Part shown: positions 12,945 to 22,412 of the stretch, in pieces
Numbering within the stretch: the first letter of the stretch is position 1
Layout: each line of letters begins with the position of its first letter
Assembly (NCBI GenBank): GCA_018817915.1
Contig: JAHISX010000022.1
Coordinates: forward strand, 1 to 37,351
Reading direction: 5' to 3'
DNA length: 37,351 bases
Origin: Bacillota bacterium
Lineage (GTDB): Bacteria > Bacillota_I > Bacilli_A > Acholeplasmatales > Acholeplasmataceae
Notes under the pieces: model-generated
What the model was told of the DNA's origin: nothing
Database searches by the model: none
Seen by the model: the letters and a program-made list of their open reading frames with translations, nothing else
Program-made: the position numbers and the translations under genes

Positions 12945-12987
12945 GACCTCCTATATTTGAGGTCCACTATAATCACTTACAGCGGAC
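12945..12987 (-). promoter_or_regulatory. Expression platform of the THF riboswitch
   Basis: The folT ribosome binding site lies in GAGGTC (from 12945-12950), which can pair with GACCTC (from 12959-12964). The overlapping AGTGGAC (from 12962-12968) can pair instead with GTCCGCT (from 12981-12987), which belongs to the aptamer P1 side. Ligand-bound P1 would release AGTGGACCTC to mask the ribosome binding site, predicting folT OFF with ligand. The six T after the small stem could also allow some termination. Confidence 0.7.
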
Positions 12988-13070
12988 GTATTAGAAAACC
13001 GCCACTTTCGTGTTCGTTCTAACCATATATCCCACGGTTAGACACTTAACGCTTTCTAATTACTCTGTAA
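12977..13070 (-). promoter_or_regulatory. Tetrahydrofolate (THF) riboswitch aptamer
   Basis: On the minus strand the conserved text of the folT-type THF riboswitch is present: GCGTTAAGTGT, then a TGGGAT element, AACGAACACGAAAGTGGCGG, and CGTCCGCTG. P1 is closed by TTACAG (from 13065-13070) and CTGTAA (from 12977-12982). It lies directly before a FolT-like gene, as in known Firmicute examples. Confidence 0.93.
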
Positions 13071-13111: not shown

Positions 13112-13149
13112 GAAAAAAAGACTAGTCTTTATCCTATAATGACCAGTCT
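13112..13149 (-). terminator. Terminator after ung
   Basis: A 9-bp stem, AGACTGGTC with GACTAGTCT (one G-U pair), is followed by a T run on the minus strand. The ung stop lies in the loop region. Confidence 0.85.
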
Positions 13150-13781
13150 ATTGGCTGAATATTATTTTTAATGAGGAAATCATTTGTCTTAGAAAAAGGT
13201 TTTGATCCGAAGAATCCACGGGATGCTGATAGCGGTGAAGGGTGAACAGCCTTTAATATGAGATGTTTATCATGATCAATATATTTCGTAAACTTTTGAG
13301 CATGAGCTCCCCATAGGATAAAAACAACAGGTTTTTGTTTCTCATTAACTATTTTTACAATCTCAAGTGTGAATTCTTCCCATCCTTTGCCTTGATGACT
13401 CAAAGGCTGATGAAGCTCAACAGTAAGTGATGTATTTAGTAAGAGTACACCTTGTTTTGCCCATTTGGTTAAATTTCCTGTTTTCGGGTATGCTACATTT
13501 AAGTCGCTAACAAGTTCTTTATATATATTCTTTAAGCTAGGCGGATATAATCCTTGTTCGACACTAAAAGCTAGACCATGTGCTTGATTATGATTGTGGT
13601 ATGGATCTTGTCCAATCATGACAACTTTAACCTCATCATAAGGTGTTAGTTTTAGACAAGATAACCTATTTTCTTTAGGCGGCAAAATAACTTTAGTTTG
13701 GTCTTCTTCTTTTAGAAACTCAACAAGTTTTTGAAAATATGGTTTTTTTAATTCTGATTGAATCAAATCGTCCCACATCAT
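13134..13781 (-). CDS. ung: Uracil-DNA glycosylase (family 1)
   Basis: Removes uracil from DNA in base excision repair. The water-activating motif GQDPYHNHNQAHGLAFSV carries Asp59. LLLNTSLTV and FILWGAHAQ follow, and the DNA-intercalating HPSPLSASRGFFG loop is intact. It has 215 residues. Its start overlaps the stop of the second SipW-type peptidase gene, so it is read as the last gene of that cluster although nothing in its function fits protein export. Confidence 0.97.
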   Translation of the reverse strand: MMWDDLIQSELKKPYFQKLVEFLKEEDQTKVILPPKENRLSCLKLTPYDEVKVVMIGQDPYHNHNQAHGLAFSVEQGLYPPSLKNIYKELVSDLNVAYPKTGNLTKWAKQGVLLLNTSLTVELHQPLSHQGKGWEEFTLEIVKIVNEKQKPVVFILWGAHAQKFTKYIDHDKHLILKAVHPSPLSASRGFFGSKPFSKTNDFLIKNNIQPIDWSL

Positions 13782-14368
13782 TCTTTTTTACCATCACTTA
13801 AAGCCTTTTTTGTTACTTTAACTACTGTAACTATAATTGCTATATTGACAACAATCAATAAAACCATAATTGGATTTCTAAATATATTTTGCATAAAAAC
13901 AATGACTACACCCACATTTGGGATGACAAATTTAACTCTACCAATAATGTCATCATAAGTAATATTTGTTGGATTACCATTGATATCTTTCCAGTTATCA
14001 TATGGAATATCATCTTCCGTTGCACCGTGAGTTCGATAAACAGTCTCACCATCAACATCTTCAATTCCTACGATATAATGTGTGACCTCACTTTTGATAT
14101 AAGTTCCATTGTTTGCTAATAGATAAGTATAAAAAGTAATAATATCACCAACTTGAAGATCTTCTTGTTTAACTTTTACATCAATGACAACATCATTAAT
14201 CATGATATCGGGCTCCATACTGCCTGATACGATAGTAAAGACTTTAAAACCAGTATATTTGATGCTATCTTCAGGAGCAACCACATTAATAATAATGAAA
14301 AAAAGCATAACAGTCACAACGACATAAAATATTATATTTTTGATGATTGCTTTTGTTCTCTTTTTCAT
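13778..14368 (-). CDS. SipW/archaeal-type signal peptidase I, copy 2
   Basis: A membrane-bound S26B signal peptidase. TM1 is about 10-30. The catalytic serine is Ser50 in VSGSMEP; the general base is His97 in VTHYI, as in SipW and eukaryotic/archaeal enzymes, instead of the lysine of ordinary bacterial SPases. LQVGDIITFY and ITYDDIIGRVKFVIP are family blocks, and a second helix closes the C-terminus (about 160-185). It has 196 residues and an AAGGAG ribosome binding site. A terminator-like hairpin precedes it. With the cargo genes upstream it is likely a dedicated signal peptidase for them. Confidence 0.9.
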   Translation of the reverse strand: MKKRTKAIIKNIIFYVVVTVMLFFIIINVVAPEDSIKYTGFKVFTIVSGSMEPDIMINDVVIDVKVKQEDLQVGDIITFYTYLLANNGTYIKSEVTHYIVGIEDVDGETVYRTHGATEDDIPYDNWKDINGNPTNITYDDIIGRVKFVIPNVGVVIVFMQNIFRNPIMVLLIVVNIAIIVTVVKVTKKALSDGKKE

Positions 14369-14384
14369 AAATTCTCCTTGTTAT

Positions 14385-14418
14385 GAATAAAATAAACCAA
14401 ATCTATTCGATTGGTTTA
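14385..14418 (-). terminator. Attenuator-like hairpin before the second SipW-type gene
   Basis: TAAACCAA (from 14411-14418) pairs with TTGGTTTA (from 14393-14400), followed by TTTTATT on the minus strand. It spans the stop codon of the 14403-15047 gene. The tail is imperfect, so partial termination is likely. Confidence 0.55.
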
Positions 14419-15047
14419 TCTTCTTTTTTTCTAATGTAAAAAATATAGACCAATGAAAATATAATAGCATATGTACCTATCATAAATATATATCCTTTTA
14501 GGCTTGATGATACATAACTAATAATACTGAGTAGATTCGCATCCTCAATGTAAACACCTTGGATATCATCAAGGTTGACGGTATAAGAGATGACACCATC
14601 AAATATTGTTTGAGCAACACCTTGATCTATATCAAGACTTATTATCTCTTCAATCCAATAGTACTCCGTATTATATCTTCCATATAAAATAATTTGATCC
14701 CCAACAGCTAGTGTATCAAGATCAACCTTTTCAACTCTAACGACTTTAGCTATCAGTTGATCATTTATCTCTTGATTCATTGGAACTGCTAATAAAGTTG
14801 TTGATCTATATGCATTGATGCCTCTATTTTCTGATAACAATGGAATTGAAACAGAAAAAATATGTATCAATGCTAAAATCAGAGCCAACCAAAATATTTT
14901 TTTTCGCGTTATCTTGAAACTAAATTTTTTGAATTTTTCTTTTGTATCTGCTTTTTTATTCTGTTCTAAAGCTAAATTTTTTATATTTTGATGAGCTTGA
15001 TTGTTCAATTGCACAACCAACTCATCCGTAGTTAAATAATTTGTCAA
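14403..15047 (-). CDS. Degenerate SipW-like membrane protein (probable pseudo-peptidase)
   Basis: A 214-residue protein that follows the plan of its two peptidase neighbours: one N-terminal helix (about 50-68), a beta-rich outer domain and a C-terminal helix (about 184-205). LAVGDQIILYGRY matches LQVGDIITFYTYL, and NLDDIQGVYI matches TYDDIIGRVKF. The catalytic blocks are gone: SGSMEP is replaced by a stretch around LLAVPMN, and the THYI histidine region reads YWIEEI. A 45-residue basic cytoplasmic N-terminus is extra. The start is a TTG with AGGA 9 nt upstream, overlapping the end region of the previous gene, so expression may be low. It may act as a non-catalytic partner or scaffold; that is inference. 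Confidence 0.75.
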   Translation of the reverse strand: MTNYLTTDELVVQLNNQAHQNIKNLALEQNKKADTKEKFKKFSFKITRKKIFWLALILALIHIFSVSIPLLSENRGINAYRSTTLLAVPMNQEINDQLIAKVVRVEKVDLDTLAVGDQIILYGRYNTEYYWIEEIISLDIDQGVAQTIFDGVISYTVNLDDIQGVYIEDANLLSIISYVSSSLKGYIFMIGTYAIIFSLVYIFYIRKKEDKPIE

Positions 15048-15058
15048 TCTACCACGTC

Positions 15059-15640
15059 CTACTGTTTCGTTTCTTTGTTTTCTTCTTTAATTATTTGCTC
15101 TTTTTTTCCCGCTTTTACAAGGTAAACAATAATACCAATGATTACGATATTAACTGATATGGTAGCAATTCCAAAAGGACTCTTCACAAAGTTAACAAAC
15201 ATACCTAATTGAGGAATTTTAAATCCGTAAACACCTAAAATATCTTCATCATATAAAATCCATGTATCTTGTACAGTTGATCCGTATCTATGAGTTCTAA
15301 AAACACGATCGCCATTTCCATCTTCGGTTATCGAATAGATGTAATGAGTGATGATTTCTTTTTCTCCATCGTAATTAATATCAGCTTTGAAAGTAATAAT
15401 ATCTTCAACTTCAAGTTTATCTAAATTTGGATTAAATACAACAACCATATCATTAACATTTAAAACTGGTTCCATGCTTTCTGTTATGACAACATATGGC
15501 TTAAATTGAAAGACCTTAATAGTTGTAGTTGGAATAAATAACTCTAAAAGTATATAAAACACCAGCAAACCTGCAATAACATAAAAAATAATGGATCCAA
15601 CAAGCTTTGAACTGTGTTTTCTTGTTTTTTGTTCATTCAT
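15059..15640 (-). CDS. SipW/archaeal-type signal peptidase I, copy 1
   Basis: An S26B signal peptidase of 193 residues. TM1 is about 17-36. The catalytic Ser55 lies in ITESMEP, the general base His99 in ITHYI, with an acidic residue near Asp125 (STVQDTW) and the DEDILGVYGFKIP block. A C-terminal helix spans about 153-172, then a charged Lys/Glu tail. It is the nearest peptidase to the two cargo genes, which carry the matching signal-peptide type. It has its own promoter 42 bp upstream and also receives readthrough from the riboswitch promoter. Confidence 0.92.
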   Translation of the reverse strand: MNEQKTRKHSSKLVGSIIFYVIAGLLVFYILLELFIPTTTIKVFQFKPYVVITESMEPVLNVNDMVVVFNPNLDKLEVEDIITFKADINYDGEKEIITHYIYSITEDGNGDRVFRTHRYGSTVQDTWILYDEDILGVYGFKIPQLGMFVNFVKSPFGIATISVNIVIIGIIVYLVKAGKKEQIIKEENKETKQ

Positions 15641-15681
15641 TTAGGCATACCCCACTTAGAAATATTTATAATATCGAATGA

Positions 15682-15710
15682 ATTATATCATAAAACATGA
15701 AAAAAGTTAA
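15682..15710 (-). promoter_or_regulatory. Internal promoter before the peptidase genes
   Basis: TTAACT (15705-15710), 17 bp, TATAAT (15682-15687) on the minus strand, with TG before the -10 (TGATATAAT). It would supply the peptidase genes and ung at a basal level independent of the riboswitch. Confidence 0.65.
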
Positions 15711-15743
15711 TATTTCTCAATTAAAATATATATATTTTTGTTA

Positions 15744-15776
15744 ATGCAAGCAGATCTAATGAACAGCGTATCTGCT
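15744..15776. repeat. Inverted repeat of unknown role
   Basis: AAGCAGAT and ATCTGCTT arms, 8 bp each, flank about 14 bp in the intergenic region between cargo and peptidase genes. No T-run follows on either strand, so it is not a normal terminator. Confidence 0.5.
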
Positions 15777-15833
15777 TAGCACATTCGATAATTTAAACAA
15801 ATCTTATAAGCATCAAAGCATGAATAAATTAAA

Positions 15834-15855
15834 GGCGACTTACGAATAAGTCGCC
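15834..15855 (-). terminator. Very stable UUCG hairpin after the cargo genes
   Basis: On the minus strand GGCGACTTA-TTCG-TAAGTCGCC, a perfect 9-bp stem with the exceptionally stable UUCG tetraloop. The tail TTTAATTTATT is only moderately T-rich. It can act as partial terminator and as a 3' end stabiliser for the cargo mRNA. Confidence 0.7.
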
Positions 15856-15884
15856 ATTTGATTGAAATGTTAAGACTATCTAAA

Positions 15885-16412
15885 TTATACTGCTGCTACT
15901 GTGAATGTAAATGTGAAATCTATTGCTAAACCAGCAACTGTATTGTAAACAGCTTGGCTAGCAGGTTCATTCATAGTGATTGTTGCAATTACTGTAACTG
16001 TTGCACCATCAGAAATAATTGTATATGATCCAGCGTTGTTTAGTGAAACATTAAATAATGCTGATACATCTGCTGAAGAAGGATTTTCAACACTATCAAG
16101 AACAACTGATAAAGTACTTGAAAGACCAGATGCGTCTAAACCTGTAGAAGCCCAAGCAACTGTCCAAGTCAATGTAACTGATGTTACATCTCCACCAACT
16201 GCAAATCCTGTTGGAACTAATGTTCCAGAACCAATTACTGCTGAACCAATGCCTACTGTTGATGTTACAGTTTCACCTGTACCAATTGTAATTTGTTCAA
16301 CTCCAGTGTCACTATCAGCTGCAATTCCAGCTGCCCAATATGCATATGTGAAACCTGATACCAATACTGCTAACATAACTAATAAACCTATAACTAATTT
16401 CTTTTGTCTCAT
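15885..16412 (-). CDS. SipW-type signal peptide exported protein (TasA/camelysin-like), acidic
   Basis: A 175-residue secreted protein. MRQKK is followed by one hydrophobic segment (about 6-22) ending in TYAYWA, the AYW/AYF motif of SipW-dependent signal peptides. The mature part is rich in Thr, Val, Ser, Ala and Gly in a beta-strand pattern and contains no Lys, Arg, His or Cys at all, with about a dozen acidic residues, so it must be very acidic. It is a paralogue of the next upstream product: GTLVPTGF matches GMLVPEGY, and the C-terminal TVTVIATITMNEP...FTFTFTV matches TVTITIVVRLLEP...ISFTIRFSV. An AAAGGAG ribosome binding site supports high expression. The cargo role is inferred; filament formation is a hypothesis. 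Confidence 0.85.
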   Translation of the reverse strand: MRQKKLVIGLLVMLAVLVSGFTYAYWAAGIAADSDTGVEQITIGTGETVTSTVGIGSAVIGSGTLVPTGFAVGGDVTSVTLTWTVAWASTGLDASGLSSTLSVVLDSVENPSSADVSALFNVSLNNAGSYTIISDGATVTVIATITMNEPASQAVYNTVAGLAIDFTFTFTVAAV

Positions 16413-16462
16413 TTTTTAAATCTCCTTTTTTAATTTTCCCTTTTTATTTTTTATTTTTTTAA

Positions 16463-17044
16463 TTAATCTAAAATTCTTGGTTCTACACTAAATCTAATTG
16501 TAAAACTTATATCTTTACCTTTAATCGCGTTATATGCTGCTTCTGAATCTTCCACGTTGATGCGCTCTAATCCAAATCCTCTATCAGCAGCTTCTGCAGC
16601 ATCAATTGGCTCTAATAATCTTACTACAATAGTAATTGTTACTGTACTATTGAATAATTCATTTACAAAACTACGATTTCCGTTACCAATTTGTATGTCG
16701 ACAAGTTGTTCATAGTCTTCAAGCCCATCAATTTTTACATCAATTGCTTCAACGACTAAATTCATGCTCTTTACTAATGTTTTGTCAACACTTACATCAT
16801 ATTCCAGGATGACTTGATCAACTTCTCCTTCTAGGTAAATATACCCTTCGGGAACAAGCATTCCTGTGAAACTCTGTTGTTTATCCTCAATGACAAGGTT
16901 AGCGTCCTCAGGTTCAAACTCGATGATTACGTTTGATAGTTGAGATACGTCAGTCCAATAAGCGAATGCTGCGGTTGAAGTGAATCCGAGTGCAGTCATC
17001 AACATGATGATAATAACAATTGGCACGTATCTTTTTCTCCCCAT
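16463..17044 (-). CDS. SipW-type signal peptide exported protein (TasA/camelysin-like)
   Basis: A 193-residue secreted protein and the first gene after the riboswitch. MGRKRY precedes a hydrophobic segment (about 7-28) ending AFAYWTD, very close to the TasA-type junction. The mature domain alternates hydrophobic and polar residues as a beta-sandwich would, and shares blocks with the downstream paralogue (see that entry). Unlike the paralogue it contains some Lys and Arg and a charged C-terminus (RFSVEPRILD). An AAAGGAGG ribosome binding site is present. By analogy with TasA/TapA it could be a fibre subunit or the anchor/accessory protein; sequence alone does not decide. Confidence 0.85.
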   Translation of the reverse strand: MGRKRYVPIVIIIMLMTALGFTSTAAFAYWTDVSQLSNVIIEFEPEDANLVIEDKQQSFTGMLVPEGYIYLEGEVDQVILEYDVSVDKTLVKSMNLVVEAIDVKIDGLEDYEQLVDIQIGNGNRSFVNELFNSTVTITIVVRLLEPIDAAEAADRGFGLERINVEDSEAAYNAIKGKDISFTIRFSVEPRILD

Positions 17045-17110
17045 CGTTTCGCCTCCTTTGACTGAGAAAAATCTAACGTTTTCCTTTTTTAACTGATTTT
17101 CTTAGTCTTT

Positions 17111-17187
17111 TCTAATAAAATAAAAAGCCCACATAATAATCAGTATCTTCAATGAATGTCTTTCGACATCACTAATGACAACTGGCT
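17111..17187 (-). terminator. Riboswitch-controlled terminator
   Basis: On the minus strand AGCC at the 3' side of the aptamer and TCATTAGTG can pair with TACTGATTA and GGCT, enclosing an ATGTC-GAAA-GACAT hairpin, followed by TTTTTATTTTATT. The same CATTAGT is the 3' strand of aptamer P1, so the two folds exclude each other. Confidence 0.7.
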
Positions 17188-17251
17188 ACCATCTGACAGG
17201 CCCTGTAGTTTTGCGTCCCATGATTTCTCATGGTTTGCCTTTTACATTAAT
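17171..17251 (-). promoter_or_regulatory. GEMM-I riboswitch (cyclic di-GMP class I type)
   Basis: On the minus strand: GGCAAACC, a perfect CCATGA stem with GAAA tetraloop, GGGACGCAAAAC, CTACAGGGCCT, and ATGGTAGCCAG. This is the complete class-I GEMM core, including the GNRA loop and its receptor side. P1 is ATTAATG (from 17245-17251) with CATTAGT (from 17171-17177). It sits in the 5' UTR of the TasA-like/SipW cluster. I cannot separate c-di-GMP from the related cGAMP variants with certainty; a G is kept at what I align as the discriminating position, which favours c-di-GMP. Confidence 0.93.
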
Positions 17252-17277
17252 TGCGGATAAATACATAATACTCCATC

Positions 17278-17306
17278 ATTATATATCACAATAGAAATAA
17301 AGTCAA
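17278..17306 (-). promoter_or_regulatory. Promoter of the riboswitch/TasA-like cluster
   Basis: TTGACT (17301-17306), 17 bp, TATAAT (17278-17283) on the minus strand. Transcription starting near 17271 puts the whole aptamer in a leader of about 227 nt. This explains the 415-bp gap between gapA and the first cargo gene. Confidence 0.9.
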
Positions 17307-22199: not shown

Positions 22200-22205
22200 T
22201 AAAGT

Positions 22206-22412
22206 GCAATGAGAAGGAAAAGTAGTTTGTAAACAGACTTTTAGAGAACTGGGATGGTGGAATCCAGTAGTCATGAATAAATGAATGGGTCCTTTGAGCA
22301 AACAGTAAATCGGCTTTAACGATATTGAGGGCTGGAAATTAAATTCCAGAACTAAGGTGGCACCGCGTAACAATACGTCCTTAGATTTTTAATCTATGGA
22401 CGTTTTATTTTT
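22206..22412 (+). promoter_or_regulatory. T-box riboswitch, tryptophan
   Basis: The T-box sequence AAGGTGGCACCGCG is at 22354-22367. The specifier loop GAATGGGTCC contains the Trp codon TGG at 22286-22288, and the stem I tip has ACTGG...GGTGGAAT..CCAGT. The terminator stem ACGTCC...GGACGT with TTTTATTTTT (about 22374-22410) ends just before trpS. Uncharged tRNA-Trp would favour the antiterminator and turn trpS on. Confidence 0.97.

Follow-up and report, generated by a model that had tools for sequence, protein, structure and literature searches.

A cyclic di-GMP riboswitch and a predicted SipW-type export system form a conserved locus in wall-less Acholeplasmataceae

The stretch of DNA analysed here, hereafter the window, is a contig of 37,351 nucleotides (JAHISX010000022.1, assembly GCA_018817915.1) from a Bacillota bacterium of the Acholeplasmataceae. 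It carries, entirely on its minus strand, a locus that spans position 13778, the end of pepB, to position 17306, where the first promoter starts, and that combines a class-I cyclic di-GMP (c-di-GMP) riboswitch, two genes for exported proteins named cargo1 and cargo2, two SipW-type signal peptidases of the S26B family, pepA and pepB, and an S26 homologue, M, devoid of catalytic residues. Judged from its sequence and those of its relatives, it appears to be a real and conserved c-di-GMP-switched SipW-type export locus of wall-less bacteria, which would work like sipW–tasA and has three features of its own, namely its control by an RNA, the division into a cargo unit and a peptidase unit, and the conservation of a dead peptidase. 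A previous sequence-only reading had proposed a class-I GEMM riboswitch, two exported proteins with AYW-type signals, two S26B peptidases with Ser/His dyads and a dead-looking third copy between the same coordinates, and these elements are all real:

17278..17306, minus strand: sigma-70-type promoter of the cargo unit, TTGACT-17-TATAAT, 11 of 12 consensus bases
17174..17249, minus strand: c-di-GMP-I (GEMM-Ia) riboswitch aptamer with G at position 20 (RF01051, 64.1 bits)
17126..17202, minus strand: terminator-like hairpin, the putative expression platform, overlapping the 3' half of the aptamer and ending in TTTTTATTTTATT
16463..17044, minus strand: cargo1, exported protein of 193 amino acids, signal end ...TAAFA-YW, predicted beta-sandwich
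15885..16412, minus strand: cargo2, exported paralogue of cargo1, 175 amino acids, signal end ...GFTYA-YW, predicted beta-sandwich
15834..15855, minus strand: terminator hairpin after cargo2, GGCGACTTATTCGTAAGTCGCC and then a T-rich stretch
15682..15710, minus strand: second promoter, for the peptidase unit, upstream of pepA, TTAACT-17-TATAAT with TG
15059..15640, minus strand: pepA, S26B (endoplasmic reticulum/SipW-type) signal peptidase, TIGR02228 58.5 bits, Ser-His dyad intact
14403..15047, minus strand: M, S26-related pseudo-peptidase of 214 amino acids, TTG start, without catalytic Ser or His
13778..14368, minus strand: pepB, S26B signal peptidase, TIGR02228 53.0 bits, Ser-His dyad intact

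From these elements we can propose a mechanism by which a wall-less bacterium of the genus Peloplasma would gate a surface-protein locus through c-di-GMP; we regard it, TasA-like polymerisation included, as rather probable. The strong promoter would produce a leader RNA; without c-di-GMP, the 3' half of the aptamer would be pulled into the terminator hairpin and transcription would end, while binding of c-di-GMP would let the aptamer keep its bases, block the terminator and allow transcription of both cargo genes. The cargos would then be exported via Sec, and the SipW-type S26B peptidases would cleave them at A/(Y or F)-W; these peptidases would be produced, together with the dead S26 subunit M, from a separate and probably constitutive promoter, M probably holding or selecting the substrate. 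The released beta-sandwich cargos, with a flexible N-terminal segment behind the cut, would most likely polymerise by strand exchange like TasA, and the polymer would constitute a fibre or coat for attachment.

When the same gene order was sought in related genomes, the window-type arrangement with its riboswitch was found in 21 of the 61 genomes of the family, some of whose contigs stop before the peptidases and one of which (G011) holds a divergent copy; c-di-GMP-I riboswitches as such occur in 38 of the 61. The relatives sharing the locus are Acholeplasmataceae, Tenericutes and Mycoplasmatota records. Across them, identity ranges from 32% to 72% for cargo1 and from 32% to 70% for cargo2, and every one of the 28 aligned members of each cargo has Trp two residues past the signal-peptide Ala. 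Because gene order and riboswitch recur in 21 genomes and this Trp in 28 members of both cargos, the pattern lies beyond chance. The genomes are related, so that their counts are not independent samples, a point to be held against the proposed mechanism. Family-wide, 88 of 102 c-di-GMP-I arrays (tandem copies collapsed, arrays with a downstream gene, signal within the first three genes) precede genes with SipW-type signals, versus 32 of 579 other open reading frames of at least 100 amino acids at the same loci, a per-three-gene baseline near 16%. Beyond the family, a cargo1 relative is encoded in 18 genomes of the class that belong to other families; all 18 have c-di-GMP-I riboswitches, and in 16 of them the riboswitch precedes the best cargo1 match by about 120 bases at most. 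The window cargo1 shares only about 35% identity with its farthest relatives, and the riboswitch–cargo1 linkage appears to be old. A third A-Y-W protein, larger or smaller, often lies between cargo2 and pepA in relatives and is lacking at the window locus; elsewhere in the source genome, on a different contig (L018 1-432), a third-cargo-like A-Y-W protein is encoded after a c-di-GMP-I riboswitch of its own, and an A-Y-W protein is likewise set apart behind its own riboswitch in G028. The cluster is also present in the metagenome-assembled genomes OKU06 and OKU19 (L154 and L141), obtained from rock-attached communities on mica schist in Outokumpu (PMC8921683), an origin that fits a role in attachment and does not show one.

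With regard to the host, the source genome is a 2.13-Mb draft with 33% G+C, in which the window corresponds to contig C56. A domain search of this genome gave no match to the penicillin-binding transpeptidase family PF00905, and Peloplasma aerotolerans, a cultured organism of the same GTDB genus that has the same locus, is a cell-wall-less, non-motile coccus (PMC11122141); on these two grounds the wall-less state of the host, already suspected from the window, is well supported.

The sequence-only reading had assumed one promoter and a single switched unit comprising all the elements, and in this respect it has to be amended. The cargo-unit promoter stands 29 nucleotides ahead of the aptamer, and a hairpin terminator follows cargo2, after which a second promoter precedes pepA. 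In a comparison of 24 pepA-upstream loci, the window included, a TGN-TATAAT box was present in 22, mostly 38 to 58 bases before the start codon, and a terminator-like hairpin ahead of pepA in 16, while the sequence around the conserved box differs among the loci. Because of this conserved box and of the hairpin ahead of it, the peptidases appear to have a promoter of their own, which would also serve the uracil-DNA glycosylase-like gene that follows them. Since terminator and second promoter separate the two units, the riboswitch would control the cargo genes and not the peptidases, so that it would govern cargo supply only; processing capacity would probably be constant while c-di-GMP sets the supply of cargo. 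A single transcript over the whole locus is disfavoured by the same conserved terminator and promoter.

Concerning export, the residue preceding the invariant Trp is Tyr or Phe in each 28-member cargo set, so that A-(Y/F)-W hardly varies or does not vary at all. Aromatic residues at P2' are known to hinder the P-type peptidase LepB, and TasA, which has Phe at this position, is cut by SipW (PMC10269814). Both pepA and pepB exceed the curated TIGR02228 cut-off of 51.85 and harbour the SMEP serine and the THY histidine. They fail to reach the cut-off of 190 of the Bacillus SipW equivalog NF046067 (53.7 and 44.1 bits, respectively) and thus appear SipW-like without being that equivalog; moreover, the pepB profile matches SEC11A/C with E values of 1.8e-13 to 3.9e-12. 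Since S26B peptidases accompany an invariant A-(Y/F)-W, SipW-type export of the cargos is supported, and cleavage would be expected behind the Ala. The two cargos are paralogues (profile–profile E 4.7e-19, the signal region contributing). Neither they nor their profiles gave a credible match among PDB sequences, and Pfam and NCBIfam scans returned sub-threshold noise only, apart from the SipW-dependent signal peptide family TIGR04088, which matches 10 of 28 relatives at E up to 0.1 (best 2e-4).

The third peptidase-like protein, M, matches no family when its single sequence is used in profile searches. Its 20-member alignment, in profile–profile comparison, matches the S26 profiles of pepB (E 3e-13) and pepA (E 9.7e-11), and the catalytic Ser and His are both missing from all 20 members. 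In close pairs, its ratio of nonsynonymous to synonymous substitution rates (dN/dS) is 0.09 to 0.14, versus 0.08 to 0.14 for the active copies, which points to purifying selection; values of 0.41 to 0.47 in a sister clade indicate faster evolution there. A decaying pseudogene is excluded by these close-pair ratios and by the absence of an interrupting stop in any relative examined. In L149, L153, L154, L155 and L156, pepA has Thr in place of Ser and Tyr in place of His, and in L157 it likewise lacks both catalytic residues, pepB being intact in all six; the more distant L158 and L161 have two peptidases and no M. This distribution would suit a complex in which one or two S26 subunits are catalytic and one or two others are not. 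We can tentatively, and with some doubt, go further and propose that wall-less bacteria make TasA-like fibres under the direct control of a c-di-GMP riboswitch and release them by a three-subunit S26B peptidase, with the dead S26 protein as structural or substrate-selecting subunit. Bacteria would then have a signal peptidase complex of several subunits that are paralogues of one another, to which sister lineages would add a second S26 copy without Ser and His.

The AlphaFold2 models of cargo1 and cargo2, of moderate quality (mean predicted local distance difference test scores of 72.8 and 75.2), each show one signal helix, a low-confidence segment from residue 21 to 45 or 46, and a beta-rich domain. 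When they were searched with Foldseek against 350,542 PDB chains, the TasA fibre 8aur was the top match of both (E 2.2e-3 for cargo1 and 1.8e-4 for cargo2, probability 1.00), and the donor-strand PapG pilin domain ranked second for both. VIA-align further aligned cargo1 with the archaeal TasA-like bundling pilus 7ueg (Z 6.0 over 117 residues). Several observations weigh against a TasA-like system. With VIA-align, the score of cargo1 against TasA (Z 6.2 over 124 residues) is equalled by unrelated immunoglobulin-like folds, and TasA is not among the 50 matches listed for cargo2, which is no evidence of its absence. The TasA/camelysin profile (Peptidase_M73, PF12389) matched nothing in the genome or in the 28 members of each cargo, a TapA-like assembly chaperone was not identified, and TIGR04088, whose cut-off is 19, scored cargo1 at 14.1 bits and left cargo2 unmatched. 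Furthermore, the description of P. aerotolerans is silent on fibres, biofilm and c-di-GMP (PMC11122141). A TasA-like fold of the cargos is therefore favoured and not proven; the system would work like TasA, membership of the TasA family being unproven. The fibre system advanced by the sequence-only reading is upheld only in part, by the Foldseek rank of both cargos, with Z values below 8 and the missing profile match on the other side.

A different fate of the cargos can be envisaged with the same switch and export, in which they would be monomeric or membrane-associated surface proteins, such as an adhesin or an S-layer-like coat, with a generic immunoglobulin-like fold. The tie of TasA with integrin, MSP and chaperone domains in Z score would then be expected, as would the lack of a TasA profile match, and a wall-less cell offers no wall for fibre anchoring. 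However, the TasA fibre comes first among all searched chains for both paralogues, the presence of two or three paralogous subunits at each locus agrees with a heteropolymer, and neither model places the stretch that follows the cut, as would be expected of a donor strand; on balance, we judge this alternative rather unlikely.

Returning to the proposed c-di-GMP-gated mechanism, the aptamer scores 64.1 bits against the RF01051 covariance model (gathering score 35, E 1.8e-10). Its sequence, AAAAGGCAAACC, is of the G20, c-di-GMP type, as are 122 of the 137 riboswitch homologues of the family. Diguanylate cyclases, whose absence the sequence-only reading had named as an argument against c-di-GMP control, were looked for in the source genome, which encodes 15 GGDEF domains, at least nine of them with an intact GG(D/E)EF motif, and GGDEF-EAL proteins as well. 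Control of the locus by c-di-GMP is supported by this riboswitch, its G20 and these proteins, and c-di-GMP would accordingly be the likely ligand in the cell. The leader hairpin (17202..17126, -28.3 kcal/mol) is built partly from bases of the aptamer 3' half, and the 5' arm of the terminator begins within the aptamer in 105 of the 137 family riboswitches, a count obtained with a simple terminator finder that detected the long hairpin of the window only when longer arms were allowed. Since this arm lies inside the aptamer, the ligand-bound aptamer and the terminator should be mutually exclusive and the leader, from its folding, should be an ON switch for c-di-GMP, as described for Bc3-5 of Bacillus thuringiensis, in which the terminator also takes aptamer bases (PMC4759541).

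The opposite direction, an OFF switch by which c-di-GMP would repress the cargos, has in its favour that cyclic-dinucleotide riboswitches of both directions are known (PMC9262584) and that ViennaRNA scores neither ligand binding nor pseudoknots; given the position of the terminator arm in the window and its homologues, which is the ON design of Bc3-5, we consider it improbable. Sensing of another cyclic dinucleotide, 3',3'-cyclic GMP–AMP (cGAMP), deserves mention because A at position 20 is associated with cGAMP binding (PMC6274999) and is found in 7 of the 137 family homologues (L083, L106, L092, L068, L069, L129 and L105), where the ligand may have changed; two of these seven, the system-A leaders of G018 and G004, precede the same cargo operon. 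The G20 of the window and of most homologues, and the many GGDEF domains of the genome, make it very improbable for the present leader. Lastly, a camelysin-family origin has been suggested for TasA (PMC9674648), but the missing PF12389 matches and the absence of a visible HExxH motif in the cargo sequences leave hardly any room for cargos that would be camelysin-type metalloproteases (peptidase M73) instead of structural proteins.

In other respects, tandem c-di-GMP-I arrays are found across the family, with 13 double, 7 triple and 1 quadruple among 107 arrays. The quadruple one lies in G015 (L079 3926-4377), and a triple one of the source genome (L017 5165-5514) is located directly behind two GGDEF-EAL genes at the end of contig C84. 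Weak GEMM-like matches of 35 to 37 bits (L118 4012-4100, L132 8170-8258 and L133 8620-8708) have an unusual stable hairpin, stand upstream of carboxynorspermidine dehydrogenase/decarboxylase-like genes and possibly represent a different leader RNA. The source genome also possesses two copies of a second, c-di-GMP-linked export system, on contigs C25 and C84 (L019, L130, L163), one of them with its own riboswitch. This system comprises A-W-F signal proteins, S26B peptidases, a 510-residue protein with a weak AAA_5 match and secreted proteins of 2,300 to 2,400 residues, to which a 621-residue unknown protein is added on C25. Next to the locus, the uracil-DNA glycosylase-like gene, assigned by its sequence pattern, is kept in nearly all relatives whose contig extends far enough and is probably cotranscribed with pepB while remaining outside the function of the locus:

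13134..13781, minus strand: uracil-DNA glycosylase-like gene, overlapping pepB by 4 bases

Two further regulatory RNAs of the window are ordinary, namely a tetrahydrofolate riboswitch (12978-13069) before a folate-transporter-like gene and a T-box (22200-22385) before a tryptophanyl-tRNA-synthetase-like gene.

Signalling by c-di-GMP and matrix export of the SipW/TasA type have so far been studied in walled bacteria. Together with its relatives, the locus suggests that wall-less Acholeplasmataceae and related families possess a complete c-di-GMP pathway, from synthesis to RNA sensor and surface output, of which the riboswitch is the clearly recognisable output. In the open-access literature, with subscription papers and preprints outside its scope, we found no published description of the locus and no paper joining Acholeplasma, cyclic di-GMP and riboswitch; the titles and abstract openings of papers on Acholeplasma and c-di-GMP, together with one term search, do not describe it either. 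P. aerotolerans provides a cultured organism in which the locus can be tested, and two questions are raised, namely why a dead S26 copy stays beside active ones, and why, in the sister clade, a second copy is deprived of both catalytic residues when those of pepB have been retained.

Several known systems resemble the locus in part. The eukaryotic signal peptidase complex (SEC11 and accessory subunits) has the S26B catalytic fold and several subunits; here, however, the putative non-catalytic partner is itself an S26 homologue, in what would be a complex. In B. thuringiensis, the c-di-GMP-I aptamers of Bc3-5, with their aptamer-overlapping terminator, likewise precede surface-protein genes, cspABCDE (PMC4759541), but wall anchoring is predicted for four of the five proteins encoded there, which are not of the SipW type. 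Bc3-5 is a triple tandem, an arrangement also met in this family, where the window has a single copy and relatives up to four. The TasA/CalY/CapP system of Bacillus cereus (PMC13082335) shares the presence of two structural subunits, which form heterofilaments there, and the independence from sortase, whereas its chaperone-like CapP has no identified counterpart here. In the sipW-bsaABCRSD operon of Clostridium perfringens (PMC7395162), a SipW-type peptidase is required for the release of a self-polymerising beta-rich matrix protein, but there is one peptidase, encoded first in the operon. The tapA-sipW-tasA operon of Bacillus subtilis differs by its control through SinR, in contrast with the c-di-GMP riboswitch and separate cargo and peptidase units described here, and the present locus further departs from it by its two active peptidases and a dead one, the lack of a sequence-level TasA match and its wall-less host. 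Both nevertheless place a dedicated S26B peptidase beside exported beta-sandwich proteins (predicted as such here) with an aromatic P2' residue, and the TasA fibre is the top structural match of both cargos.

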